From the NCBI RefSeq assembly GCF_000179235.2, contig NZ_CP039373.1, forward strand, positions 1,209,860 through 1,273,859: a DNA stretch of 64,000 nt, in the 5' to 3' direction. Numbering within the stretch: position 1 is the first letter of the stretch; each line of letters starts with the position of its first letter. Below the pieces are notes generated by a model. It searched no databases and was not told the DNA's origin. It saw only the letters and a program-made list of their open reading frames with translations. The position numbers and the translations under genes are program-made. Positions 2,715 through 34,918 of this stretch are shown in pieces. This DNA is from Synechococcus sp. CB0101 (GTDB lineage: Bacteria > Cyanobacteriota > Cyanobacteriia > PCC-6307 > Cyanobiaceae).

Positions 2715-3665
2715 GTGCAGGTCACCTTCCTCGGCACCAGTTCCGGCGTCCCCACCCGCGGCCGCAACGTATCGGCCGTGGCCCTGCGCCTGCCGCAACG
2801 GGCCGAGCTCTGGCTGTTCGACTGCGGGGAAGGCACGCAGCACCAGTTCCTGCGCAGCGAGCTGCGGGTGAGCCAGCTCCGGCGGATCTTCGTGACCCAC
2901 ATGCATGGGGATCACGTGTTCGGCCTGCCGGGGCTGCTAGCCAGCCTGGGGCTGGCGGGCACCTGCAATGGGATCGACCTCTACGGCCCCGATCCTCTGC
3001 GGGACTACCTCGAGGGTGTTCTGCGCACCTCCTCCACCCGCATCGGTTACCCGCTGCGGAGCCATCGCGTCAAAGACGCCGCCAGCAGCGGTGCCCTGCT
3101 GCTCGATGACGATGACATCACCGTGCGTTGCACGAAGCTGATCCACCGGGTTCCGGCCTACGCCTATCGGGTGGACCAGAAACCACGCGCCGGCCGCTTT
3201 GACGTGGAGCAGGCCCGTGCGCTTGGGATCGCGCCTGGACCGGTCTACGCCGAGCTCAAGGCCGGCCGCGAGGTCGTGCTCGATGACGGCCGGATCATCA
3301 ACGGCGCCAGCCTCTGCGGCCCGGAACGCCCCGGCTGCAGCGTTGTCTACTGCACCGACACCGTGTTCAGCGAAGCGGCGGTGGAGCTGGCCCAGGGGGC
3401 CGACCTGCTGATCCACGAGAGCACCTTCGCCCACGCCGAAGCGGAGATGGCCTTCGCCCGCCAGCACTCCACCAGCACCATGGCCGCGCAAACCGCCTTG
3501 GCTGCAGGGGTGAAGCAGCTGATGCTCACTCACCTGAGCCCGCGCTACGTGCCGGGTAATCCCGTCACCCCCGACGACCTGCTCAACGAAGCCCGGGCGA
3601 TCTTCCCCAACACCGAGCTGGCCAAAGACTTCCTCAGCGTTGAAATCGCCCCGGAAGACAGCTGA
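2715..3665 (+). CDS. rnz: Ribonuclease Z (tRNA 3'-end endonuclease)
   Basis: A 316-aa metallo-beta-lactamase-fold nuclease that removes 3' trailers from pre-tRNAs, needed here because the window's tRNA gene lacks an encoded CCA. The protein opens with [14 protein letters not shown], the usual RNase Z N terminus, so GTG at 2715 is preferred although the frame is open to 2625. Zinc ligands are seen in [13 protein letters not shown] (HxHxDH), CTDT, and a late HLSPRY. The length matches the bacterial short form. It is transcribed away from the SpoIID-like gene, and psbV follows about 110 bases later, probably with its own promoter. Confidence 0.93.
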
Positions 3666-3772
3666 GGCTGCAACAGTTCGTGAGTGCCTGGCGCTGCGCC
3701 AACCAGCAGGCCCATCGGCCGTGATACAAGGGCTCTGGCGCGGTCTCTACCGCCACCTTGCCGGCTTTTTCG

Positions 3773-4282
3773 ATGGCCTCTTCCTTCTCTTCTGCCCTCC
3801 GGACCCTGGCCCGGATGCTGGTTCTGCCCCTGGCGCTGCTGGTGGGTCTGGCCGGCCCCGCGCAGGCTGCCCAGTGGACCGCTGACCAGCTCACCGTTCC
3901 CGTCAACGCCGACGGTGCTTCGGTGACCTTCAGCGAACAGGAAGTCAAAGCGGGCCGCAAGATCTTCAACAGCAGCTGCGGTGAGTGCCACGCCGGTGGC
4001 ATCACCAAGACCAACCAAAACGTGGGCCTCGATCCCGAGACCCTGGCCCTTGCCACACCCGCCCGCGACAACGTGGACGCCCTGGTGGACTACATGAAAG
4101 ACCCCACCAGCTACGACGGCGAGTACAGCATTGCCGACGTGCACCCCAGCATCCGCAGTAGCGATGTTTTCGTGAAGATGCGCGATCTCAGCGACGAAGA
4201 CCTGCGCCTGATGGCCGGCTTCATCCTGGTCGCCCCCAAAGTGCAGGGCGCCCAGTGGGGCGGCGGCAAGATCTATTTCTGA
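3773..4282 (+). CDS. psbV: Photosystem II cytochrome c-550
   Basis: A 169-aa precursor of the extrinsic lumenal subunit PsbV, which stabilises the Mn4CaO5 cluster of photosystem II. Residues 1-32 form a Sec signal peptide ending GPAQA; the mature protein starts AQWTADQL. The single haem site is CGECH (about residues 69-73), and a later VHPSI segment supplies the probable distal haem ligand. The C terminus is the family's GGKIYF. ATG at 3773 is chosen over an upstream TTG because it gives a standard signal peptide. A strong Rho-independent terminator follows directly, so psbV is likely monocistronic. Export and haem attachment would use the CcdA/CcsB genes near 59-61 kb. Confidence 0.96.
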   Translation: MASSFSSALRTLARMLVLPLALLVGLAGPAQAAQWTADQLTVPVNADGASVTFSEQEVKAGRKIFNSSCGECHAGGITKTNQNVGLDPETLALATPARDNVDALVDYMKDPTSYDGEYSIADVHPSIRSSDVFVKMRDLSDEDLRLMAGFILVAPKVQGAQWGGGKIYF

Positions 4283-4306
4283 TCTAGTTGCTCGTTGACT
4301 CTCTTC

Positions 4307-4338
4307 AGACCCCTCCAGCCGGAGGGGTCTTTTTTTTG
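4307..4338 (+). terminator. Rho-independent terminator of psbV
   Basis: A perfect 10-bp stem AGACCCCTCC / GGAGGGGTCT with an AGCC loop (4307-4330), followed by a run of eight T residues. It lies 24 bases after the psbV stop and just before the end of the oppositely oriented gene at 4343. Confidence 0.93.
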
Positions 4339-4342
4339 ATCC

Positions 4343-4780
4343 TCACGGATCGAGCGGCGGCGGGCTGACGTTCTCAGGCTCGAAGGAGGTGGGTTGCTTG
4401 CTGTACCACCACTCCTGCAGGGGCCCGCTGAGCCGCAGCGAAAACAACGTGAGCACGGTGACGGTGGGCCTGGAACCCGGCTGCAGCAGCTCCACCGCAT
4501 AGGAGGGGCAGCGGCGGGCGGCCAGATCGGCCACGAAGCGGCGCCCCACCCGCCGCCAACTGGGCTCCTTGCTACGCCAGGCGATGCGGCAGCAGGGCCA
4601 GGGGAGCTCCTCGCGATCAAACAGACGACAGCAGGGCCCGAGCACCCGAAAGCTGTACTGCCCGCCGGGGCTGGTGTGCTCCGTGCCGTGGGCATAGAGC
4701 GCCTGCACCTGAGGTGGCGTGGATGCCGAGGTGGAAGCAGCGGTCACGGCGAGCAAAGCGCTTAAAGACAAAAAAACCAC
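4343..4780 (-). CDS. Cys-rich exported protein of unknown function
   Basis: A conserved-looking reading frame of up to 145 aa that I cannot assign to a named family. The N terminus is hydrophobic with an Ala/Ser-rich stretch (LSALLAVTAAS), consistent with a signal peptide, so the product is probably periplasmic or lumenal. The mature part contains two PCCR motifs about 16 residues apart plus a further Cys (RRCPSY), a pattern suggesting disulfides or metal binding. The start is uncertain: GTG at 4780 lies inside the petF terminator and no ATG is available upstream before a stop; a TTG at 4771 would still leave a signal peptide. It lies downstream of petF on the same strand. Confidence 0.55.
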   Translation of the reverse strand: MVFLSLSALLAVTAASTSASTPPQVQALYAHGTEHTSPGGQYSFRVLGPCCRLFDREELPWPCCRIAWRSKEPSWRRVGRRFVADLAARRCPSYAVELLQPGSRPTVTVLTLFSLRLSGPLQEWWYSKQPTSFEPENVSPPPLDP

Positions 4781-4793
4781 CCCGAAGGGTGGT
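4770..4793 (-). terminator. Rho-independent terminator downstream of petF
   Basis: Read on the minus strand, a 7-bp stem ACCACCC / GGGTGGT closes a TTCG tetraloop (an exceptionally stable cUUCGg-type loop) and is followed by seven T residues. It begins about 50 bases after the petF stop. The hairpin overlaps the start region of the next minus-strand gene, so that gene would need either read-through or its own very close promoter. Confidence 0.88.
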
Positions 4794-4842
4794 GGCGTGA
4801 AGCGAAACAGACAGGGCGTGAAGGGTCACGCCCAGCTGGAGC

Positions 4843-5142
4843 TCAGTACAGCTCTTCTTCGGCGTGGGTCTTGATGGTGCAGTCGCTGGTGGGGTAGGCC
4901 ACGCAGGTGAGCACGAAACCAGCTTCGATCTGGTCGTCGTCGAGGAAGCTCTGGTCCGACTGGTCCACGGTGCCAGCGGTGATCTTGCCGGCGCAGGTGC
5001 TGCAGGCACCAGCACGGCAGGAGTAGGGGAGGTCGATGCCCTGCTCTTCAGCGGCGTCGAGGATGTACTGGTCGTCGGGAACCTCGATGGTCTTGTTGAG
5101 GCCCTCTGCCTCGCTGATGAGGGTGACCTTGTAGGAAGCCAT
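4843..5142 (-). CDS. petF: Plant-type [2Fe-2S] ferredoxin
   Basis: A 99-aa soluble electron carrier that takes electrons from photosystem I and gives them to FNR, ferredoxin-thioredoxin reductase, nitrogen assimilation enzymes and others. The cluster ligands are Cys42, Cys47, Cys50 and Cys80 in [10 protein letters not shown] and VLTC, the exact plant-type spacing. The acidic C terminus (HAEEELY) is typical of PetF1. The ATG start gives MASYKVTLI, standard for the family. The 181-base space to prmA holds no gene; it contains a GGGAA/TTCCC inverted repeat near 5169-5180 in the probable 5' leader. A strong UUCG-loop terminator follows. Confidence 0.95.
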
Positions 5143-5323
5143 GGAAGGGATTGGGGCTCACAGGCTCCTGGGAAAGTTCCCGGGCCCGTAGGACGGACCC
5201 TTCCTACATCCGCCAAGGTGTCGTTCTGGGGTTCTGAGGGCGTCTGGCCGCGAAGCCCAATCAGAACACAGGGCACAGATCAGCGTGCCTTATGCAACAT
5301 CAGCAGATCCGGGGCGCTGCTCT

Positions 5324-6247
5324 TCAGGCGCGCCGGATCGTCATCAAGCCCCACTGGCTCTGCTGAGCGGTGAGTTCCGCCTGCCAGCCCTGCTCCGCCA
5401 GAGCCTGCTCCAGCCGGGGCGCCTGGTCCACCAACAGGCCGCTAAGCAAGCCGAGACCATCGGCCGCAAGCACCGTGTGGAACTCCGGACACAGCGCCTC
5501 AATCACCGGGGCCAGGATGTTGCAGAGCAGGAGATCGGCCGGCTGGCCGCCCAGCAGCTCCGCCAGGCGCTCCACCGAGCCCAGCTCCACGGTGAGGCGA
5601 TCGGCAAAGCCACTCACCACCCCGTTGTCGCGGGTGGCTCGCACGGCGAGGGAGTCGGTATCGGCCGCAGCCACGCTGCTGGCGCCCTGAAGCAGGGCTG
5701 CAATGCCGAGGATGCCGCTGCCGCAACCCAGATCCGCCACACGGATCGGCCCCAGGTCGGGACGCTGCTCCGTACCGCGTTGCTGAGCCAACTGCTCGAT
5801 CGCCTCGAGGCAGAGGCGGGTGGTGGGATGGCTGCCGGTGCCGAAGGCGCTACCGGGATCCATGCGGATCACCAGGCGATCGGCGTGTTCCGGCGGCAAG
5901 TCGAGCCAAGCCGGCAGGATCAACAGCCGCTCCCCGACGGGATCGGCCTGCCAGTGCTGCTTCCAGCTAAGGCTCCAATCCTCGTCGTCCTGCTGCTCCC
6001 AGGCGATCGGCGGCAGGCTGAGGCCGAAGGTGTCGGCAAGGGGCGCCAGGGCCTGCTCCAGCTGCTGCCGTTCCGGCTCCGGCCAATCGGCTTCGGGAAG
6101 CCACGCCACCAGCTGCCGCTGATCCGGAGCCTCTGGGCGATGGCGCACCGCCACCCTCGGGATTCCGAGGGCGTTGAGCTTCCAGATCAGCGATTCTTCG
6201 AGCTCGGGAAGCGCGGGAAGCTCAAGCCGCCACCAGGAGAGCGTCAT
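5324..6247 (-). CDS. prmA: Ribosomal protein L11 methyltransferase
   Basis: A 307-aa SAM-dependent methyltransferase that trimethylates L11 on the large ribosomal subunit. An N-terminal substrate-recognition half is followed by the Rossmann half with MDPGSAFGTGSHPTT, the signature of PrmA, and ADLGCGSGILGIAAL (SAM motif I), then LLCNILAPVI (motif IV, NxL type). Length is normal for the family. It starts with ATG 18 bases after serA on the same strand, so the pair is likely an operon. The 3' end overlaps a GC-rich hairpin (about 5306-5341) without a T-run, of uncertain meaning. Confidence 0.93.
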   Translation of the reverse strand: MTLSWWRLELPALPELEESLIWKLNALGIPRVAVRHRPEAPDQRQLVAWLPEADWPEPERQQLEQALAPLADTFGLSLPPIAWEQQDDEDWSLSWKQHWQADPVGERLLILPAWLDLPPEHADRLVIRMDPGSAFGTGSHPTTRLCLEAIEQLAQQRGTEQRPDLGPIRVADLGCGSGILGIAALLQGASSVAAADTDSLAVRATRDNGVVSGFADRLTVELGSVERLAELLGGQPADLLLCNILAPVIEALCPEFHTVLAADGLGLLSGLLVDQAPRLEQALAEQGWQAELTAQQSQWGLMTIRRA

Positions 6248-26221: not shown

Positions 26222-26245
26222 GCGCCCCCAACGGGGCGCTTTTTT
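26222..26245 (+). terminator. Rho-independent terminator of atpD-atpC
   Basis: A 7-bp stem GCGCCCC / GGGGCGC with a CAAC loop, followed by six T residues (26240-26245). It begins 26 bases after the epsilon stop and ends before the next gene's start at 26271. Confidence 0.9.
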
Positions 26246-26270
26246 GTTTGTTGCCTGCGGATTCACGCCA

Positions 26271-27389
26271 ATGGGTGTCGGCCACGACCTGGGAGAGCAG
26301 CTGCGCCAATGGCTGGCAGCCGACCCCAACGGCCTGCGCCAATCGCGGGCCCTCAGCAACCGCCTAATGGATGCCCTGGGGGCCAATGAAGGCCTGCGGG
26401 GCCCCGTACGCGATCTCGCCAGCCAGCCCCTACTGCTGCAGCTGCTCCATAGCCAGGGCGCCCAGCAGCAATCAGCGCTGGCCAGTCTCACCGCCCAGCT
26501 ACGGGTCACCTATGCGCCGGCGGTGCTGGAGGAACTGCTCGATCTGCTGCACGCCGCGATCGGCCAGGTTTCACCCGCCGACCACAATCCGCCGACTGAC
26601 GAAGCGGCTGCGCCTGCCCCTGAGCCGCCGCCTCAAGAGGCCGCGCCACGGGCCTCGCGTGAACGCATGCTCAACCTGAAGCTGGAGCTTGAACGGTTTG
26701 GGCCTGGCTTAGCCCTCGGGGCGGCCGGAGCCCTGGTGTTCGCCTGGGCCGCAGCTGAACTGGATCGCGCCCTGTTCGATGGCTGGGGCTGGAGCGGCGG
26801 GGTGGTGCTGGTGCTGGTGCTAGGCCTGCTGCAGGCCCTCAGCCTGGGCCCGCTGAAAAGGCTGAAACGGTACTGGCCGCTGGCCAGCCAGGAGGCCTCA
26901 CAGCCGCGGCAGGCCTGGCAATGGCTGAGCCAGGCCTGGATTCACGCCAATGGTCTGGAGGCCGGCCTCAACCTGATCCTGCTGTTGATCCTGTTGGGCG
27001 ATTCGCCGCTGCCCTTAGGCGATGTGGTTTTGCGCTACTGCCTCACGACCCTGGCCTGCCTGGCCCTGGCGGCGCTATGCGCGACGCGCTGGCGCATCAC
27101 CCGCCTGTGGAGCGGTGCCTCCGGTGCCATCAGCGCCTTGATCGCCCTGGCGGCGGGGCTGAGCCTGTTACACTGGCGGGTGTTTCGCTTCAGCAGCGGA
27201 GGGTTGGAGATCCCCGCCTGGGTGCTGCTGTTGGTCTACGGAGCACTGCAACTGGGCTGGCAGCTGCCCCGTCAGAACCCCGATGAGCGCAGCACGGCGC
27301 TGGAGCGGATCTTGAGCAGCTCCTGGGGCTGGGGCTTGCTGCTGGGGCTGGGCTGGGCGGTGGTCACCCGGATCCGCGAACTGCTGTAG
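26271..27389 (+). CDS. Large membrane protein of unknown function
   Basis: A 372-aa protein I do not recognise. An N-terminal soluble domain of about 120 residues (DLGEQLRQWLAADPNGL, many Leu/Gln helices) is followed by an Ala/Pro-rich linker, then about six hydrophobic segments from residue 145 to the end (for instance LALGAAGALVFAWAAAEL and VVLVLVLGLLQAL). ATG at 26271 is chosen over an upstream TTG. It follows the atpD-atpC terminator and points toward the FHA-PBP gene; their 3' ends overlap by 26 bases. It could be a conserved picocyanobacterial protein; no motif suggests enzymatic activity. Confidence 0.7.
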   Translation: MGVGHDLGEQLRQWLAADPNGLRQSRALSNRLMDALGANEGLRGPVRDLASQPLLLQLLHSQGAQQQSALASLTAQLRVTYAPAVLEELLDLLHAAIGQVSPADHNPPTDEAAAPAPEPPPQEAAPRASRERMLNLKLELERFGPGLALGAAGALVFAWAAAELDRALFDGWGWSGGVVLVLVLGLLQALSLGPLKRLKRYWPLASQEASQPRQAWQWLSQAWIHANGLEAGLNLILLLILLGDSPLPLGDVVLRYCLTTLACLALAALCATRWRITRLWSGASGAISALIALAAGLSLLHWRVFRFSSGGLEIPAWVLLLVYGALQLGWQLPRQNPDERSTALERILSSSWGWGLLLGLGWAVVTRIRELL

Positions 27390-29616
27390 CGGCCTGCTGC
27401 ATGTAGCGCCCCCACAACTCCGCCACCAAACCACCACTGGCCGCCTGGGCCGGGGTGTTGTCGTCGTTGCCCATCCAGATGGCGGTGAGCAACTGGCTCG
27501 ACGGTGAATAGCCCACAAACAGCACATCCACGCCGTTGTTGGTGGTGCCGGTCTTGCCACGGGCATCGGGCACAAGGCCAGCGGCCCGCCCGGTACCGCC
27601 CTGCACCACTCCCGCCAGGAGTTGATCCATGGCGGCGGCGAGCTCCGGCGAGAGCAGCTGGCGGCTCTGCTCCCCGATGGGCACGGTGACACCCCGCTCC
27701 GGACATTGCTCAAGGCTCTTGATCGAACCGCAGATGCCCAGGTCGTAGATGCGGCTCACGCCGTGCATCGGCACGGAACGCCCCCCATTGGCCACCACCG
27801 CATAGGCGCGGGCCAGCTCATAGAGGTAGGTTTCGCGGCCGCCGAGAATGGTGTTGTAGTCGGCATCCAGCGGGGTGGAGAGGCCCAGGCGGCGGGCCAG
27901 CTTCAGCACATTGCCCAGGCCGGCGCGCTCCGCCAGGCGCAGGGCCACCACGTTTTCAGAGCGCGCAAACCCTTCCGCCACGCTGGTGCGGCCACCGCCA
28001 CTGCGGCAGCCGGCCACATAGGCCAAGGGGGCACAGGAGATGGAATCCGCGGGATTCACCCCAGCCGCCAGGGCCGCAAGAACGGGAAAGAGTTTGAAGG
28101 TGGAGCCGGGCTGGCGGAGGGCCTGCACCCGATCAAAGCTGGAGCGGCTGTAATCGCCGCCACCCACGTAGGCCAGGATGTCGCCGGTTTCGGTGTTCAC
28201 CGTGATCAAGGCCCCCTGGCTGAGCCCAACGGCAGCCGCCGGCCCCTCCAGGAAGCGCTTGAGCTGATCCTGCGCGAGCTGCTGCAGCTTGGGATTAATC
28301 GTGCTCACCACCGCGTAATTGCCAGCGGCGTTTTCACTGCTGAGATCGAGGCCGAAGCGGGTGCCCTCCAGCTCACCCAGCACGTAATCGCTGAAAAAGG
28401 GGTAGCTGCTGAAGGTGGATTCGCGGCAGGCGGAGGGGTCGATGTTGAGCGGTCGCCGCTGGGCATCGATCAGGGCCTGATCCGTGAGCCAGCCCTGCTC
28501 GTGCATCAGCTTGAGCACCAGATTGCGCCGCTCCAGGCCCGCCCCGGGATCGTCGGTGTTGCAGGGGCTGTAGCCATTCGGGCTGGGCAACAGTCCCACC
28601 AGAAACGCCGCCTGGCCCACGTCGAGATCACTGGCCGACTTGCGGAAATAGAGCTGTGAGGCCTGCTCAAATCCCTCCGTGCCCAAGCCCAGATAGGCGC
28701 GATCGAGGTAGAGCTTGAGGATGCGGTTTTTGCTGAAACCCACCTCCAGCTGCAGCGCCACCCACAGCTCCCGCAGCTTGCGGGTAAGGCTCAGATCGCG
28801 GCCCACCTCCGGATAGACCATCCGGGCCACCTGCTGGGTGAGACCACTGCCACCCCCGGTGCCCAGCAGGGCAGAGCGCAGGGTGCCGAACAGGTCGATG
28901 CCGCTGTTCCACCCGAAGCGCGCTTCCTCAGAGGCCATCAAGGCCTGGCGCAGATGCAGGGGGTAGGCCTGCAGCGAGGGCAAGGCAGTGGAAGAGCCCT
29001 CCTTGGCATCGATCTGGCGGCCATCGGCCGAGAAGATCTTCACCGGCCCGGAGATGGAGCGGATCTTCGAGCCGCCGCCGATGCTGGCGGCCACGAGCAT
29101 GCCGCTCACCAGCAGGCTGGAACCGGCCAAGGCCGCCAACCCCACCAGCAGCACCGCCTGCTCCAGTGGGCTGCGGGGATGGCGATAACGCAGCTCGGGC
29201 GCTTCGCCCTTCAGTGGTGAACCCAGCCGCACAGCATCGCCATCGCGCAGCTGGATCCAACGGATGCGGCGGTCGCGGTGGAACAGGCCGTTGGCGGAAT
29301 TGAAATCCTCGAGAGCAAACTCGCGATCGCTCGGGCTCTGCTTCTCGAGGATGGCGTGCACCCGGCTCAGGCCAGGCTCCGCCAATGGGAGTTCGCAGGC
29401 GGGATCGCGCCCCAGGCGATAGCGCTGGTTCTCGAGCACCAGCTCGCTCAGCTTGCGGCCACCGGCCCAGAGCTCCACGCTGGCTTGATGGGCCCGCAAC
29501 AACGGCCACACCTGGGCGATGGCCGCCGGACGCTCACGCCAGGGGCCTTGGACGGCAGCCCGCGCCAACGCCACCCAGGCGCGACGCACCGGCGTGGGCG
29601 CCAAACGCTCCTTCAA
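27364..29616 (-). CDS. FHA-domain class A penicillin-binding protein
   Basis: A 750-aa fusion. Residues about 45-145 form a cytosolic FHA domain (RLGRDP at 68-72, SRVHAIL from 84, DFNSANG at 104-110), so it should bind phosphothreonine. One membrane span (about 153-178) leads to a GT51 glycosyltransferase (SEEARFGWNSGID at 229-241, GGSGLTQQ at 255-262) and a transpeptidase with Ser505-Thr-Phe-Lys508, SEN (553-555) and KTGT (688-691). It would polymerise and crosslink peptidoglycan. The usual GT51 His after the Glu motif is Asn here. The start is TTG (29616) and only tentative. It is divergent from the kinase/vWA/PP2C operon with a 77-base gap, suggesting shared control. Confidence 0.88.
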   Translation of the reverse strand: MKERLAPTPVRRAWVALARAAVQGPWRERPAAIAQVWPLLRAHQASVELWAGGRKLSELVLENQRYRLGRDPACELPLAEPGLSRVHAILEKQSPSDREFALEDFNSANGLFHRDRRIRWIQLRDGDAVRLGSPLKGEAPELRYRHPRSPLEQAVLLVGLAALAGSSLLVSGMLVAASIGGGSKIRSISGPVKIFSADGRQIDAKEGSSTALPSLQAYPLHLRQALMASEEARFGWNSGIDLFGTLRSALLGTGGGSGLTQQVARMVYPEVGRDLSLTRKLRELWVALQLEVGFSKNRILKLYLDRAYLGLGTEGFEQASQLYFRKSASDLDVGQAAFLVGLLPSPNGYSPCNTDDPGAGLERRNLVLKLMHEQGWLTDQALIDAQRRPLNIDPSACRESTFSSYPFFSDYVLGELEGTRFGLDLSSENAAGNYAVVSTINPKLQQLAQDQLKRFLEGPAAAVGLSQGALITVNTETGDILAYVGGGDYSRSSFDRVQALRQPGSTFKLFPVLAALAAGVNPADSISCAPLAYVAGCRSGGGRTSVAEGFARSENVVALRLAERAGLGNVLKLARRLGLSTPLDADYNTILGGRETYLYELARAYAVVANGGRSVPMHGVSRIYDLGICGSIKSLEQCPERGVTVPIGEQSRQLLSPELAAAMDQLLAGVVQGGTGRAAGLVPDARGKTGTTNNGVDVLFVGYSPSSQLLTAIWMGNDDNTPAQAASGGLVAELWGRYMQQAATAVRGSG

Positions 29617-29693
29617 CGAAGCCAGTTGCGATGGGGTGGCCAGGCGGGTGTTGCAGCCCGGCCATAGGCTACGGCCAGCCTTCGAGCCGATCG

Positions 29694-29969
29694 TTGCAGC
29701 GTCAACGGGACCCCTGGGAACCCTTCCGGCTGTGGCTGGCGTTCACGATCGGGCTGTACGCGATCCGGGCCTTCTTCGCCGCCACCTGGGTGGGGGCCAT
29801 CCCGGGCTGGGTGCTGTTGGTGCTGGTGCTGATCGCCTTGGCCCTGGCCAGCAAAGCGCTGCTGTTCCCCGGGCGCGTGGTGCCCTATCGCGCTGGCGAT
29901 GGCGGCTGGTGGAACGACCTTCGCGATGACTGGCAGCTGTGGTGGCGCCGCCGGCGGGGGGAGCCATGA
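29694..29969 (+). CDS. Small membrane protein, first gene of the kinase-phosphatase operon
   Basis: A 91-aa protein with a short N-terminal tail (LQRQRDPWEPFRLW), two close hydrophobic segments (about residues 14-32 and 36-58) and a basic, Trp-rich tail (WWNDLRDDWQLWWRRRR). I recognise no family. The start is uncertain: TTG at 29694 is consistent with the spacing from the divergent FHA-PBP gene, while an ATG at 29631 would add 21 residues of unlikely composition. The stop overlaps the next gene's ATG by four bases (ATGA), supporting its reality and its place in the operon. Confidence 0.6.
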   Translation: MQRQRDPWEPFRLWLAFTIGLYAIRAFFAATWVGAIPGWVLLVLVLIALALASKALLFPGRVVPYRAGDGGWWNDLRDDWQLWWRRRRGEP

Positions 29970-30670
29970 GCAGCGCATCCCCGCGCCTGGTGCTGGCGGC
30001 CGATCGCCGCAAGGTGGCCCCACTGGATCCTGCGGAGCCCCTCACCATCGGCCGCGCGGCCAGCAACCGCCTCTGCCTGGCCAACCAAGAGGGCGTATCC
30101 GATCACCATGCGGTGGTGCGCTTCTCGCGTAGCCAGGGCTGGCTGGTGTGCAACTGGCAGAGCAGCGACGGCACCTTCCTAGAAGGGCGCCAGGTGCATC
30201 AATGCCGGCGGCTCGAGAACGGCGATGAAATCCGGCTGGGGCGCAGCGGGCCGGTGCTGGTGTTTGAGGCGGAGCCGGCCACACCAGCTCCGAGCGCACC
30301 GAGCAGCCAGGCGCGGGCAGCGGCTCCAACACCACCACGCAGCATCAGCGTGGGTGAGCAACAGCTGGCCGTAGCCGAGATCCGCTCCGCAGCGGTGCAG
30401 AGCCTGCCGCTGCATCCGCACATCTTCAGCTGGTGGCTGCTGGTCTGCTTGGGCGGGCTGCTGCTGTTGCCCTTTCCGCTGTTGTTCTGGCCGCTCCAGA
30501 TCAGTGCCATAGCAGCGTGGATCCTGCTGGGGTCGCGCAAACAGCATCAGCTGGTGCTGGTGCTCCGCGATGGCCGCGCGGTGCGCCATGGCTTTGCCAA
30601 TCGCCGCACGGCGCTGGCCCACCGCAATGGCATCCGCCAGGCGATCGGGCAGGACCTGGCGCCCGCATGA
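29966..30670 (+). CDS. FHA-domain membrane protein
   Basis: A 234-aa protein with an N-terminal FHA domain (about residues 8-102): TIGRAASN, SDHHAVVRF (Ser45, His48) and SSDGTFLEG follow the phosphopeptide-binding GR / SxxH / NG pattern, with Asp in place of the last Asn. A Pro/Ala-rich linker leads to two hydrophobic segments (about 153-175 and 177-190) and a basic C-terminal tail (RDGRAVRHGFANRR). The FHA faces the cytosol and likely reads the Thr phosphorylation made by the downstream kinase. Starts with ATGA overlap and ends with ATGA overlap into the kinase gene. Confidence 0.85.
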   Translation: MSSASPRLVLAADRRKVAPLDPAEPLTIGRAASNRLCLANQEGVSDHHAVVRFSRSQGWLVCNWQSSDGTFLEGRQVHQCRRLENGDEIRLGRSGPVLVFEAEPATPAPSAPSSQARAAAPTPPRSISVGEQQLAVAEIRSAAVQSLPLHPHIFSWWLLVCLGGLLLLPFPLLFWPLQISAIAAWILLGSRKQHQLVLVLRDGRAVRHGFANRRTALAHRNGIRQAIGQDLAPA

Positions 30671-32001
30671 GCTGGTTATTGCCTGAGGGCACCAGCCTGC
30701 CCTTTGCCGGTTTGGAGCAGCCACTGCTGATTGAGCGGGGGCTCGGAGGAGGCAGCCAAGGCCAGGTGTTTGCCGTGCAGCTGGGGGGTGAACGGCTCGC
30801 GCTCAAGTGGTATTTCCCCGCCTGCATCGCCAGGGATCCACAGCTGCGGCAGCGGCTGCAGCAGAGCATCCGGCTGGGGGCACCCAACGGCGATTTCCTC
30901 TGGCCCCTGGCGCTGCTGGAGCCCAGCGCCGGCAGCCTGGCCGCCTTTCCCGCCGCGGCCGGGGGCTTCGGGTATCTGATGGGTCTGCGGCCCGAGGACT
31001 TTGTGGGGGCCCATCGCCACGCCGGGGGCGACCTCGAGATCAGCCTCCACACCGTGCTCAAGGCCTGCTTCCACCTGGCGGAAGCCTTCCACCAGCTGCA
31101 TCTCAAAGGCCTCTGTTACAAGGACGTGTCGCTGGGAAATCTGTTCCTGGAGCCGAGCAGCGGCCGAATCCTGATCTGCGACAACGACAACGTGGATGTG
31201 GATGGCCAGAGCAGCAGCAGCGTGCTCGGCACCCCCGGCTTCATGGCACCCGAGGTGCTGCTCGGGCAGGCCAAACCAAGCGCCCGCAGCGATCTGTTTT
31301 CGCTGGCGGTGCTGCTGTTTCGCCTGCTCACCCGCCACGACCCCTTCCGCGGCCAGCTGGAACTGGCGATCCGCTGCCTGGATGAACCCGCCCGACGGCG
31401 CCTCTACGGCGAGGAGGCCTTGTTCATCTTTGACCCCAACGACAGCAGCAACCGGCCAGACTCGATCGAGCACAGCGCCGCCCTGATCACCTGGCCGATT
31501 TATCCGGCCAGCCTGCAACGCCTGTTTGTGCAGAGCTTCGGAGCGGGCCTGCGCCAGAGCGATCAACGCACCCTCACGGGCCAGTGGAAGCAGGCGATCA
31601 GCCAATGCCTCGATCAGCGCCAGCTCTGCAGCCATTGCGGCCAGGAAACCTTCCCTGCTCCTGAAACCACGGGTGCCTGCTGGAGCTGCGGCACTCCCCT
31701 GTCAGCGCCGCTGCGGCTGCAGCTGCCCCATGGTGTGGTGAGCGCCACCGCCGGCAACGAACTGCAGCCCCATCACTTCGATCCCCTGGTGGGAGAAGCG
31801 ATCGACGCCCCGCTAGCGCGGCTGGTGGCCCACCCAAGCGACCCCAACCTGCTCGGCCTGCAGAACCTGAGCAGCAGCCGCTGGCAGGGCCGCACCACCG
31901 GCGGTCAAAGCCTTGAGCTCGACCCTGGCAAAACCTGTAATCTCGCGGCCCTGCAGCAGCTCGACAGCAGCGCCGGACCCATCCTGGTGCTGCGCCCTTA
32001 A
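30667..32001 (+). CDS. Atypical Ser/Thr protein kinase with zinc ribbon (TerY-P type)
   Basis: A 444-aa soluble protein. The kinase domain (about 20-300) has a G-loop (GLGGGSQGQV, 25-34), the ATP Lys (LALKWYF, Lys47), a catalytic loop CYKDVSLGN with Asp153 and Asn158, a DND (172-174) in place of DFG, and GTPGFMAPE (188-196). The metal-binding Asp is kept, so activity is plausible although HRD and DFG are altered as in TerY-P family kinases. Residues 321-341 form a zinc ribbon (CSHC...CWSC). A C-terminal segment of about 90 residues (RLVAHPSDPNLLGLQNLSS) looks FHA-like but lacks clear motifs. ATGA overlaps upstream; a vWA gene follows three bases downstream. Confidence 0.85.
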   Translation: MSWLLPEGTSLPFAGLEQPLLIERGLGGGSQGQVFAVQLGGERLALKWYFPACIARDPQLRQRLQQSIRLGAPNGDFLWPLALLEPSAGSLAAFPAAAGGFGYLMGLRPEDFVGAHRHAGGDLEISLHTVLKACFHLAEAFHQLHLKGLCYKDVSLGNLFLEPSSGRILICDNDNVDVDGQSSSSVLGTPGFMAPEVLLGQAKPSARSDLFSLAVLLFRLLTRHDPFRGQLELAIRCLDEPARRRLYGEEALFIFDPNDSSNRPDSIEHSAALITWPIYPASLQRLFVQSFGAGLRQSDQRTLTGQWKQAISQCLDQRQLCSHCGQETFPAPETTGACWSCGTPLSAPLRLQLPHGVVSATAGNELQPHHFDPLVGEAIDAPLARLVAHPSDPNLLGLQNLSSSRWQGRTTGGQSLELDPGKTCNLAALQQLDSSAGPILVLRP

Positions 32002-32004
32002 GCC

Positions 32005-32736
32005 ATGCCCTTCCCCAACGTTCGGCTCAGCAACCGGCCGCTGCACTTCATCTACCTCTGCGATTGCTCCGGCTCCATGGCGGCCCAGGGGAAGATGCAG
32101 GCCCTCAACCAGGCCATCCGCCAATCACTGCCCGGCATGGCGGAGGTGGCGCGCGAGAACCCTGAAGCACGGGTGCTCGTGCGCGCCGTGCGCTTTGCCG
32201 ATCAGGCAGCGTGGCACCTGGCGGAACCCACGCCCGTGCAGCAACTGCAATGGCGTGACCTGGAGGCCGGCGGCATCACGGCCATGGGCGAGGCCCTTCA
32301 TCTGGTGGCGGAGGCACTGCAGTCGCCGCCGATGGAGGAGCGGGCCCTCCCGCCGGTGCTGGTGCTGATCTCCGATGGCCAGCCCACCGATGATTTCGAA
32401 GCCGGCCTTGACAACCTGATGCGCAGGCCCTGGGCCCAGAAAGCGGTGCGCCTGGCCATCGCCATGGGGCACGACGCCGACCTGGAGGTGCTGCAGCAAT
32501 TCATCGGCCCCGAACCCACAGGGCGGGGCAAATCACCACGGCGGCCGCTGCAAGCCAGCAATGCCACCACCCTGGCCCAATACATCCAGTGGGCCTCCAC
32601 CGCCGTGGTGGGCGCGGCCTCGATGCCAGCCAGCCGCGTGGACGCCGCACCACAGGATGCCGGCAACATCCCCCTGCCGGATCTGCCCCCCACCCTGCTC
32701 GACCCCAGCGACGACGTGGGGCCCCTGGTGTGGTGA
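32005..32736 (+). CDS. TerY-like von Willebrand factor A protein
   Basis: A 243-aa cytosolic vWA protein. The complete MIDAS is present: DCSGSM (Asp20, Ser22, Ser24), Thr92 in GGITAMGEAL and Asp124 in LISDGQPTDD, so it should bind a divalent metal and a ligand such as an acidic side chain. These proteins are known as TerY in tellurite-resistance islands and form the vWA part of the kinase-vWA-phosphatase triad. The C-terminal tail is Pro/Asp-rich (PLPDLPPTLLDPSDDVG). ATG start three bases after the kinase stop; its stop overlaps the phosphatase GTG (GTGA). Confidence 0.87.
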   Translation: MPFPNVRLSNRPLHFIYLCDCSGSMAAQGKMQALNQAIRQSLPGMAEVARENPEARVLVRAVRFADQAAWHLAEPTPVQQLQWRDLEAGGITAMGEALHLVAEALQSPPMEERALPPVLVLISDGQPTDDFEAGLDNLMRRPWAQKAVRLAIAMGHDADLEVLQQFIGPEPTGRGKSPRRPLQASNATTLAQYIQWASTAVVGAASMPASRVDAAPQDAGNIPLPDLPPTLLDPSDDVGPLVW

Positions 32737-33941
32737 GCCCGCGCTGGCAGCAGCTGCGGGCCTGCAGCGTGATCGGTGCGGCCCACCGGCGCCAAGACAA
32801 GCCCTGCCAGGACACCAGCCTGAGTGCAACGCTGCCGGCCGCCGGCGGCAACCTGCAGCTGCTGGTGGTGGCCGATGGCCACGGGAGCGCGCGCTATCGC
32901 CTCAGCCACCGGGGCAGCGCCCTGGCCTGCCAGGTGACGCAGGAAGCGGTGCAAACCTGGCTGGCCTGCACCCCCCTTTCACAGCCGGAGCGCTGGCGAG
33001 ACCTGCTGACGCAGGAACTGCCGGCCAGCATCCAGCAACGCTGGCTCGAGGCCATCGCAGCCGACTGGCAGACCCAACCGGAGGCCAGCCAGGAGGCCTT
33101 CTCTCCGCTCACTTATGGCACCACCCTCGGGCTGGTGCTGCTGGCGCCGCAGTGGTGGGGCTGCGCCGGCGTGGGCGATTGGGATCTGGCCGGCGTGGAT
33201 GTGGAGGGCCAGGCGGTGCTGCTCAGCGAAGAACGCGAGCACAGCGGCAGCGAAGCCACCGGCAGCCTGTGCCAACCGCCCGAACAACAGGGCTGGCCTA
33301 TGCGCGCCCAGCTGCAGCGTCTGGAGCAGCCCACTGAGCTACGGGCCCTGCTGCTCAGCACCGATGGGGTGCGCAAATCCTGCGCCACCGACGCCGACTA
33401 TCTGCAGCTCTGCGCCGAACTGGTGAACCTGCGCGATCCCCAGGAACTGGAACAGGGGCTCAACCACATCACCGAGTGCGGCAGCGGGGATGACGTGTCG
33501 ATCGCCATGGCGCTGCAGGCTGATGGGCCCGCGAAGCGGCGGGCATGGCTCAAGCCACGCGCCGGCTTGGGAGTGCTGCTGCTGGCCGCTGGCCTGGGGC
33601 TGGGCGCCTGGCTGATGGTGCACCGAGAGACGCCACTGCAGGCGCAGGCCCGCGAGCTCTGCGACAACCCAGAGCAGATTCCCGCCAACCTCAACCAGCG
33701 CCGTGGCCAATTCCAGGCACTGCTGCACAACCCCCAGCTGTCTACGCAACTGCAGCAGCAGGCCAGCACCGATCCCCTGGGCGCGTTGATCGCCAGCAGC
33801 CAAGAGGGAACGATCGCCGGCTGCGCCGCCCTCAACGCAGAACTGAGCCGGCAGTGGCAGCGGGCCCGCACGCCAACCGCACCGGCAAACGGCAAGATGC
33901 CCCCAGCTGCAGCGCCCGGCGCGGCGCCTGGGAAACCGTGA
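32733..33941 (+). CDS. PP2C-type protein phosphatase with membrane anchor
   Basis: A 402-aa protein. The PP2C domain (about 1-265) has VVADGHGSARY (Asp48, first metal site), TYGTTLGLVLL, STDGVRKS (Asp211) and GSGDDVSIA (Asp253/254), the four metal-binding positions of the PPM family. A membrane span (about 276-296) follows, then a short external, Ala/Pro-rich tail of about 100 residues. It would remove phosphates from Ser/Thr substrates of the upstream kinase. The start is GTG at 32733 within the vWA stop; the longest frame continues upstream but without homology. Ends with a GTGA overlap. Confidence 0.88.
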   Translation: MSPRWQQLRACSVIGAAHRRQDKPCQDTSLSATLPAAGGNLQLLVVADGHGSARYRLSHRGSALACQVTQEAVQTWLACTPLSQPERWRDLLTQELPASIQQRWLEAIAADWQTQPEASQEAFSPLTYGTTLGLVLLAPQWWGCAGVGDWDLAGVDVEGQAVLLSEEREHSGSEATGSLCQPPEQQGWPMRAQLQRLEQPTELRALLLSTDGVRKSCATDADYLQLCAELVNLRDPQELEQGLNHITECGSGDDVSIAMALQADGPAKRRAWLKPRAGLGVLLLAAGLGLGAWLMVHRETPLQAQARELCDNPEQIPANLNQRRGQFQALLHNPQLSTQLQQQASTDPLGALIASSQEGTIAGCAALNAELSRQWQRARTPTAPANGKMPPAAAPGAAPGKP

Positions 33942-34918
33942 ACGATTACGCGCTCGGAACCACGCTGCGCCGCCAGATCCTCAGCGATCTGGAGCGGGGC
34001 CTGCCCCTGGATGGACGCCGGCTGCAGGCCCTGGTGGGGGATTTCTGCGGCCAGAGCCAACTAGCCCTGCTGCCGGCCCTTAAGTATTTGGTGCTCTCGC
34101 CCGGCTTCAGCAACGCCGCCGGCCAGCAACCACCCCTGCCCGCTGATACCCGTCTGCAACTGCGGCTCCAGCAGGAACTAAACGAGGTCTTCGCCGCGGC
34201 GATCAGCGCCCGCATGGATGCAGTGCTACGCGGGCTATTGGGCCTGCCCAACACCACTCCGGCGCCGACCAGCGCCTCGCCCGAACCCGAGTTCCGATCC
34301 ACGCCCGAAGCGATCGATGTCGATGAGGAGGAGGAAGAAGAGCTAGCGCCGGCCCCCACCAGCAGCGGGAGCCGCGGACTGGTGGCCGTGTTGAGCTTCA
34401 TGGCCGGCGTGCTGGTGGTGGGTGTCGGCGGTGGCTTGGCCTGGCTGTTGCTCCAGACCAGCCTGCCCAGCGGTGGGCCACTCAGCACAGAGCGGCCGCG
34501 CCTGCCCGGCGAACTGGTGAGCCCCACTCCGGACGCCACCCCCACGGAGGCCCCGCCAGCCCCTGATCTGAGCGCCAACACGAGCGATGCCGCCACCGCC
34601 CAGGCGATCGCCAGCGTGGAGCAGCTCTACAACGACCTCTCGCTGGGGAACATCCAGGCCGCCCGCCAGCGCTTCAGTGGTGAAGCCGCCGATCAATTTG
34701 ACCCGGCCTTCTTCCGCCAGTTTCAGCGGGTGAGCGTGGACAACCTGCGGGAGCTCAGACGCGACGGCAGCTTGATCACCCTGGAAGGACTGGTGACCTT
34801 CGTGTACCCCGACGGCACCAGCCAGAGCGAATCGCGCCAGTTCACGGTGGAAACCGCCACCGAGCCAGCCCTGATCACCGGCAGCAGCTTCGGCCAGGTG
34901 ACCCGCGGCCGGCAGTAA
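33938..34918 (+). CDS. Bitopic membrane protein, last gene of the kinase-phosphatase operon
   Basis: A 326-aa protein of no named family that I recognise. Residues 1-125 are cytosolic (TTLRRQILSDLERGLPLDGRRL, a helical module), followed by an acidic stretch (DVDEEEEEELAP), one membrane span (about 144-167), a Pro/Thr-rich linker, and a C-terminal domain of about 100 residues (VEQLYNDLSLGNIQAARQRF...VRELTRG) with an NTF2/ARC6-like helix-then-sheet feel. Starts GTG within the phosphatase stop (GTGA). The acidic linker and outside domain make it a candidate effector or sensor for the upstream signalling proteins. Confidence 0.68.
   Translation: MNDYALGTTLRRQILSDLERGLPLDGRRLQALVGDFCGQSQLALLPALKYLVLSPGFSNAAGQQPPLPADTRLQLRLQQELNEVFAAAISARMDAVLRGLLGLPNTTPAPTSASPEPEFRSTPEAIDVDEEEEEELAPAPTSSGSRGLVAVLSFMAGVLVVGVGGGLAWLLLQTSLPSGGPLSTERPRLPGELVSPTPDATPTEAPPAPDLSANTSDAATAQAIASVEQLYNDLSLGNIQAARQRFSGEAADQFDPAFFRQFQRVSVDNLRELRRDGSLITLEGLVTFVYPDGTSQSESRQFTVETATEPALITGSSFGQVTRGRQ

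Follow-up and report, generated by a model that had tools for sequence, protein, structure and literature searches.

A class A PBP with a cytosolic FHA domain, divergent from a TerY-P operon, as a candidate phosphothreonine-controlled peptidoglycan synthase of Synechococcus/Cyanobium-type cyanobacteria

Can a peptidoglycan synthase itself be the reader of a phosphothreonine signal? This question is raised by a locus of Synechococcus sp. CB0101 in which the gene for a class A PBP with an N-terminal FHA domain lies back to back with genes for a protein kinase and a phosphatase. To our knowledge, TerY-P triads, the group to which these signalling genes belong, are widespread, and little is known about what they target or which sites they phosphorylate. 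An earlier note on this DNA proposed that the linked kinase controls wall synthesis through the PBP. We examined the proposal in the window, that is, the whole 64,000-nucleotide stretch of DNA analysed, and in related genomes. The host genome is a single contig of 2.79 Mb, whose nearest named relatives are Vulcanococcus and Cyanobium/Synechococcus (PBP identity up to 94-95%). FHA-PBPs are of two kinds, called type A and type B in this report, and the PBP of the locus is of type A. The features are as follows, in window positions.

27364-29616, minus strand: type A FHA class A PBP, 750 amino acids, TTG start
29182-29481, minus strand: FHA domain of the PBP (residues 46-145), cytosolic, after two helices (residues 8-41)
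29080-29169, minus strand: transmembrane helix of the PBP (residues 150-179)
28501-28998, minus strand: GT51 glycosyltransferase domain of the PBP
27415-28212, minus strand: transpeptidase domain of the PBP, with SxxK at 505-508, SxN at 553-555 and KTGT at 688-691
29660-29676, no strand assigned: near-palindrome GGCCATAGGCTACGGCC, with a TAnnnT -10-like hexamer per strand; candidate divergent promoter, from alignment
29694-29969, plus strand: small membrane protein, about 91 amino acids, TTG start, first gene of the operon
29966-30670, plus strand: FHA-TM protein, with transmembrane segments C-terminal to its FHA domain (FHA, 2.9e-14)
30667-32001, plus strand: Ser/Thr kinase of TerY-P type with a C-terminal CxxC...CxxC zinc ribbon (Pkinase, 1e-15)
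32005-32736, plus strand: TerY-like vWA protein with MIDAS motif DxSxS...T...D
32671-32703, plus strand: TerY tail motif PLPDLPPTLLD, including Thr230, a candidate phosphothreonine ligand
32730-33941, plus strand: PP2C phosphatase with a C-terminal TM-like segment (PP2C_2, 5.8e-31; conserved metal ligands)
33938-34918, plus strand: DS protein, a membrane protein of unknown function present in part of the family
26244-27389, plus strand: rhomboid-like membrane protein, convergent with the PBP; a usual, not obligatory, neighbour

The PBP had previously been assigned the interval 27364-29969. This assignment holds for 27364-29616, and the remainder (29617-29969) consists of the intergenic region and the gene for the small membrane protein. 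The 77-base gap between PBP and operon stands, from 29616 to the TTG at 29694, with the small membrane protein as the first gene beyond it; the FHA gene begins only at 29966 and the kinase at 30667. In frame with the PBP, no ATG, GTG or TTG precedes the assigned TTG. Starting the small membrane protein at the in-frame ATG further upstream, at 29631, is unlikely to be right, since sequence conservation would then set in only around residue 26.

The PBP has the class A layout of N-terminal transmembrane segment, GT51 domain and transpeptidase domain, with Pfam matches to FHA (residues 66-132, 9.7e-13), Transglycosylase (207-372, 6.9e-41) and Transpeptidase (469-734, 1.1e-22). Modelled alone by AlphaFold, residues 1-148 take the FHA fold that the earlier note had anticipated (mean pLDDT 84.6), and the best PDB matches of this model found by Foldseek include the FHA domains of Rv1747, Slr1951, FhaA and GarA. 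The full-length model, which matches class A PBPs in the PDB, comprises helices at 8-41, an all-beta FHA domain at 46-145, a transmembrane helix at 150-179 and a confidently modelled transpeptidase, with a less well modelled GT part (mean pLDDT 81). Since the FHA domain is N-terminal to the single transmembrane helix, it is cytosolic, again as proposed. The RLGRD, LSRVH and NSANG elements are all present, and G69, R70, S84, R85, H87, N109 and G110 are invariant in 70 of 70 distinct orthologues; by its predicted fold and its GR, SxxH and NG residues, the domain is predicted to be of the pThr-binding type. The transpeptidase is likewise intact: SxxK and SxN are kept in 69/69 sequences and KTG in 66-67 of 67, the remaining sequences being gaps. 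Two loci (L134 and L161) have an in-frame stop inside the range of the PBP match, which is either an end effect or a sign of a pseudogene.

FHA-PBPs are not new in themselves. Matches occur in 104 of 292 genomes sampled across the cyanobacterial phylum, and two of the three class A PBPs of the host genome carry an FHA domain. The second of these is a type B protein, 42% identical to type A and encoded downstream of an lspA-like gene. A tree built from GT and transpeptidase columns unites all FHA-PBPs in one clade and places type A as a single clade inside it (support 100 for both), on a long stem of 0.99 changes per site. Type A is thus an old, fast-diverged paralogue. A general association of FHA-PBPs with TerY-P genes was considered and rejected: in 40 type B loci, inspected with about 5-6 kb of flanking DNA to either side, the operon is absent throughout. 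Because type B, by far the commoner kind, occurs without the operon, the FHA-PBP architecture alone implies no TerY-P link. It is type A, as a separate clade, that is found only with the divergent operon.

This association is strict. Of 150 genomes from the order, 32 have type A, and those 32 plus one more, G005, have the kinase; a naive Fisher test of their co-occurrence gives 7e-32 on genomes that are related to one another. PBP and kinase operon are divergent neighbours in all 32 carriers, and also, as far as contigs reach, in 57 of 57 named type A loci, many of which are the same genomes. The search of other genomes suggested in the earlier note found type A never away from the operon, whose genes are, in order, small-TM, FHA-TM, kinase-zinc ribbon, TerY and PP2C. 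In most genomes, the locus lies beside groEL-atpD-atpC, and because this order is shared, the counts are not phylogenetically independent. The flanks are missing, however, in L043, L053/L147, L065 and the L067 group, where the module is whole; this loss amounts to at least three changes on the tree. In addition, G018 and G143 carry the module, which is absent from the rest of the genomes sampled in their genera. A functional link between PBP and operon is, on this comparative evidence, well supported.

Three observations concern individual loci. With their changed flanks, L043 (in G018) and L053 (in G143) look like whole-unit transfers. The kinase match of L053 is in two pieces near the C-terminal part, owing to a frameshift or a sequencing error. 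Finally, the contig of L138 is recorded as a Bifidobacterium breve MAG, apparently a mislabelled bin, and carries the cyanobacterial locus.

The signalling genes agree with the published definition of the TerY-P triad, which consists of a vWA protein TerY, a PP2C phosphatase and a kinase with a C-terminal zinc ribbon (PMC11090510); all three are in one operon. The zinc ribbon was judged from four conserved cysteines in CxxC pairs, the Pfam ribbon match being weak (0.098). Active sites are conserved throughout: the Lys, catalytic Asp, Asn and metal Asp of the kinase in 67/67 sequences, the MIDAS of TerY in 65/65 and the metal ligands of PP2C in 64-65 of 65. The FHA-TM protein is laxer than the FHA domain of the PBP, keeping the Arg of GR in 59 of 70 sequences and the Ser in 60 of 70.

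The rhomboid-like protein and the DS protein share an N-terminal domain (hhalign E 4.6e-7). The former keeps GxSG and is probably a pseudoprotease, because the catalytic His of TM6 is apparently Gln throughout. It may belong to the PBP/operon system.

The earlier note expected joint expression from the shared 77-base region, and a conserved element in the space between the two transcription units strengthens that expectation. GGCCATAGGCTACGGCC offers a hexamer of the -10-like form to each strand, and in nearly all type A loci a TAG-n-n-TA version recurs, its spacing to the small-TM gene almost constant (exactly TAGCCTA in 33 of 70, TAGCGTA or TAGTGTA in most others). Scanned for sigma-70 promoters, the intergenic region gave no complete consensus match. 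The element may reasonably be read as a symmetric divergent promoter.

If the operon phosphorylates a threonine, where might it be? We sought conserved threonines outside folded domains across the operon proteins, and the single clear case is the C-terminus of TerY. After a linker of 18-35 residues, variable in length and sequence, comes the consensus PLPDLPPT230-x-x-D-P-x-D-D-V-G-P-L-V-W, in which PPT is kept in 65 of 65 sequences and Asp at +3 in 61, with Gly in the other four. The small-TM, FHA-TM and PP2C families (the DS family was left out) contain no further conserved tail or linker threonine. A pThr-x-x-Asp (pTxxD) sequence is a known type of FHA ligand (PMC3146460). The motif points to Thr230 as both putative kinase substrate and putative FHA ligand. 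A PPT tail as a general trait of TerY was rejected for the sample at hand: in the few FHA-less cyanobacterial triads available (L195, L196, L199 and L200), TerY tails lack TxxD and have LPPPPPEITI-like or other endings. Since proline-rich tails occur there too, some of the motif must have another role. The TerY of G005 (locus L068), whose triad has no FHA-PBP, keeps the PPTxxD tail. A possible alternative output of that triad is an ABC transporter that carries two FHA domains and is encoded about 5 kb from it, at L068 positions 3347-5704.

The synthase itself has also been remodelled. Both catalytic residues of the type A GT51 domain, Glu230 and Glu283, are invariant. Equally invariant are Asn237, Gly258 and Asp305, which are His, Thr and Asn elsewhere; the His and Thr of the lipid-II pocket are replaced in 70 of 70 type A sequences, and the flap is about six residues shorter. 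The comparison set comprised 40 type B sequences and 22 other class A PBPs, among which the changed positions are nearly fixed. Positions 237 and 258 correspond to His107 and Thr133 of S. aureus MGT, which belong to the lining of a deep pocket where lipid II is proposed to be recognised (PMC6053601). Judged from these replacements, an altered acceptor site or conditional activity is likely. That type A is a dead enzyme we leave unproven, because both catalytic Glu residues and all transpeptidase motifs are kept.

Because the type A PBP is always back to back with kinase, phosphatase and sensor-like genes, threonine phosphorylation probably acts as a switch on wall synthesis in the Synechococcus/Cyanobium-type carriers. 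We lean toward a dedicated phosphothreonine-controlled peptidoglycan synthase. Its trigger would be a threonine phosphorylated by the kinase, for which Thr230 of the TerY tail, within PLPDLPPTxxD, is the most likely site. The mark would be read by the cytosolic FHA domain of the membrane-anchored PBP, and possibly by the FHA-TM protein too. Docking of the triad would alter the position or activity of the PBP, thereby controlling wall synthesis, and PP2C would erase the mark. The PBP is a duplicated and diverged FHA-PBP, whose activity may depend on a docked triad partner, given its remodelled acceptor site. Architecture, conservation and co-occurrence are observed, and we infer phosphorylation, Thr230 as ligand and the direction of control, which may be activation or inhibition. 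Several findings count against the switch: four of 65 TerYs have Gly at +3, FHA-less triads have proline-rich TerY tails as well, the FHA-TM protein is an equally placed reader, and type B FHA-PBPs operate without the operon in most cyanobacteria. More tentative is a narrower form, in which the phosphorylated TerY tail would dock directly on the FHA domain of the synthase and the remodelled GT would work only when docked.

The strongest competing explanation, which we consider rather unlikely, accepts that the unit is real and that the PBP FHA domain reads pThr, and assigns its ligand to another phosphoprotein, such as the kinase, the FHA-TM or DS protein, or a component of the wall machine encoded elsewhere, for example a homologue of MurJ or FtsZ. 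In that case the role of the TerY tail would be in triad assembly, as the proline-rich tails of FHA-less triads would allow, and mycobacterial FhaA indeed reads phosphorylated MviN and CwlM (PMC11898655). However, TerY alone offers a conserved tail threonine among the families compared, and PPTxxD is confined, in a small sample, to triads with FHA partners.

We think it very improbable that the locus is an antiphage or general stress TerY-P module beside which the PBP is incidental. TerY-P triads are known from defence and tellurite-resistance contexts (PMC11090510), and PADLOC defence-system profiles gave a weak TerY match (0.0027) and general kinase-domain matches to PD-T4-6 and mad6. The same profiles matched none of the PP2C, PBP, FHA-TM and DS proteins, the PBP is kept in all modules but one, and the locus is stable beside atpD/atpC/groEL in most genomes. 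Frozen gene order, in which adjacency would carry no functional link, has the common groEL-atpD-atpC flanks in its favour and is hardly credible for a module that survives flank loss, appears in two genera otherwise without it and shows complete co-occurrence within 32 carriers.

The preferred reading, a phosphothreonine-controlled synthase, may be set beside several known systems. Searches of the open-access literature turned up no work on FHA-PBPs or on a connection between TerY-P and PBPs, nor any on phospho-control of wall synthesis in Synechococcus/Cyanobium-type cyanobacteria, to which the locus is a possible route. New here are the putative pTxxD motif of the TerY tail, the lipid-II pocket changes of type A and the symmetric -10-like element. 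Type B FHA-PBPs have the same FHA-TM-GT51-transpeptidase order and intact pThr residues, but in the 40 loci compared they are not near a kinase/TerY/PP2C operon, and they have the normal pocket His, Thr and Asn. TerY-P triads elsewhere share the three genes, the kinase-zinc ribbon fusion and an intact MIDAS; at this locus, however, a peptidoglycan synthase takes the place of nuclease or restriction genes as linked effector, TerY has a PPTxxD tail, and FHA-TM and small-TM genes are added.

The parallel with actinobacteria drawn in the earlier note is apt for the likeness of mechanism and not for the proteins. In mycobacteria, PknB and FhaA/MviN likewise join a kinase, a PP2C-type phosphatase and an FHA domain to peptidoglycan synthesis, but the FHA domain belongs to a separate protein such as FhaA, which reads its phosphorylated partners, whereas here it is inside the synthase and the TerY-P kinase lacks PASTA domains. 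The type VI secretion switch PpkA-PppA-Fha, in which Fha reads pThr14 of TssL, is also a kinase/PP2C/FHA switch on a membrane machine, with Agrobacterium TssL-Fha as precedent (PMC3953482); unlike it, the locus has no secretion genes, and its output is a PBP. Compared with these systems, the locus would give TerY-P signalling a cell-wall output and, if the reading is true, would make a PBP itself the phosphothreonine reader. Since the locus supplies a physical output, a reader domain within the enzyme that forms it and a named candidate phospho-site, a single peptide and a single FHA domain allow the signalling logic to be tested.
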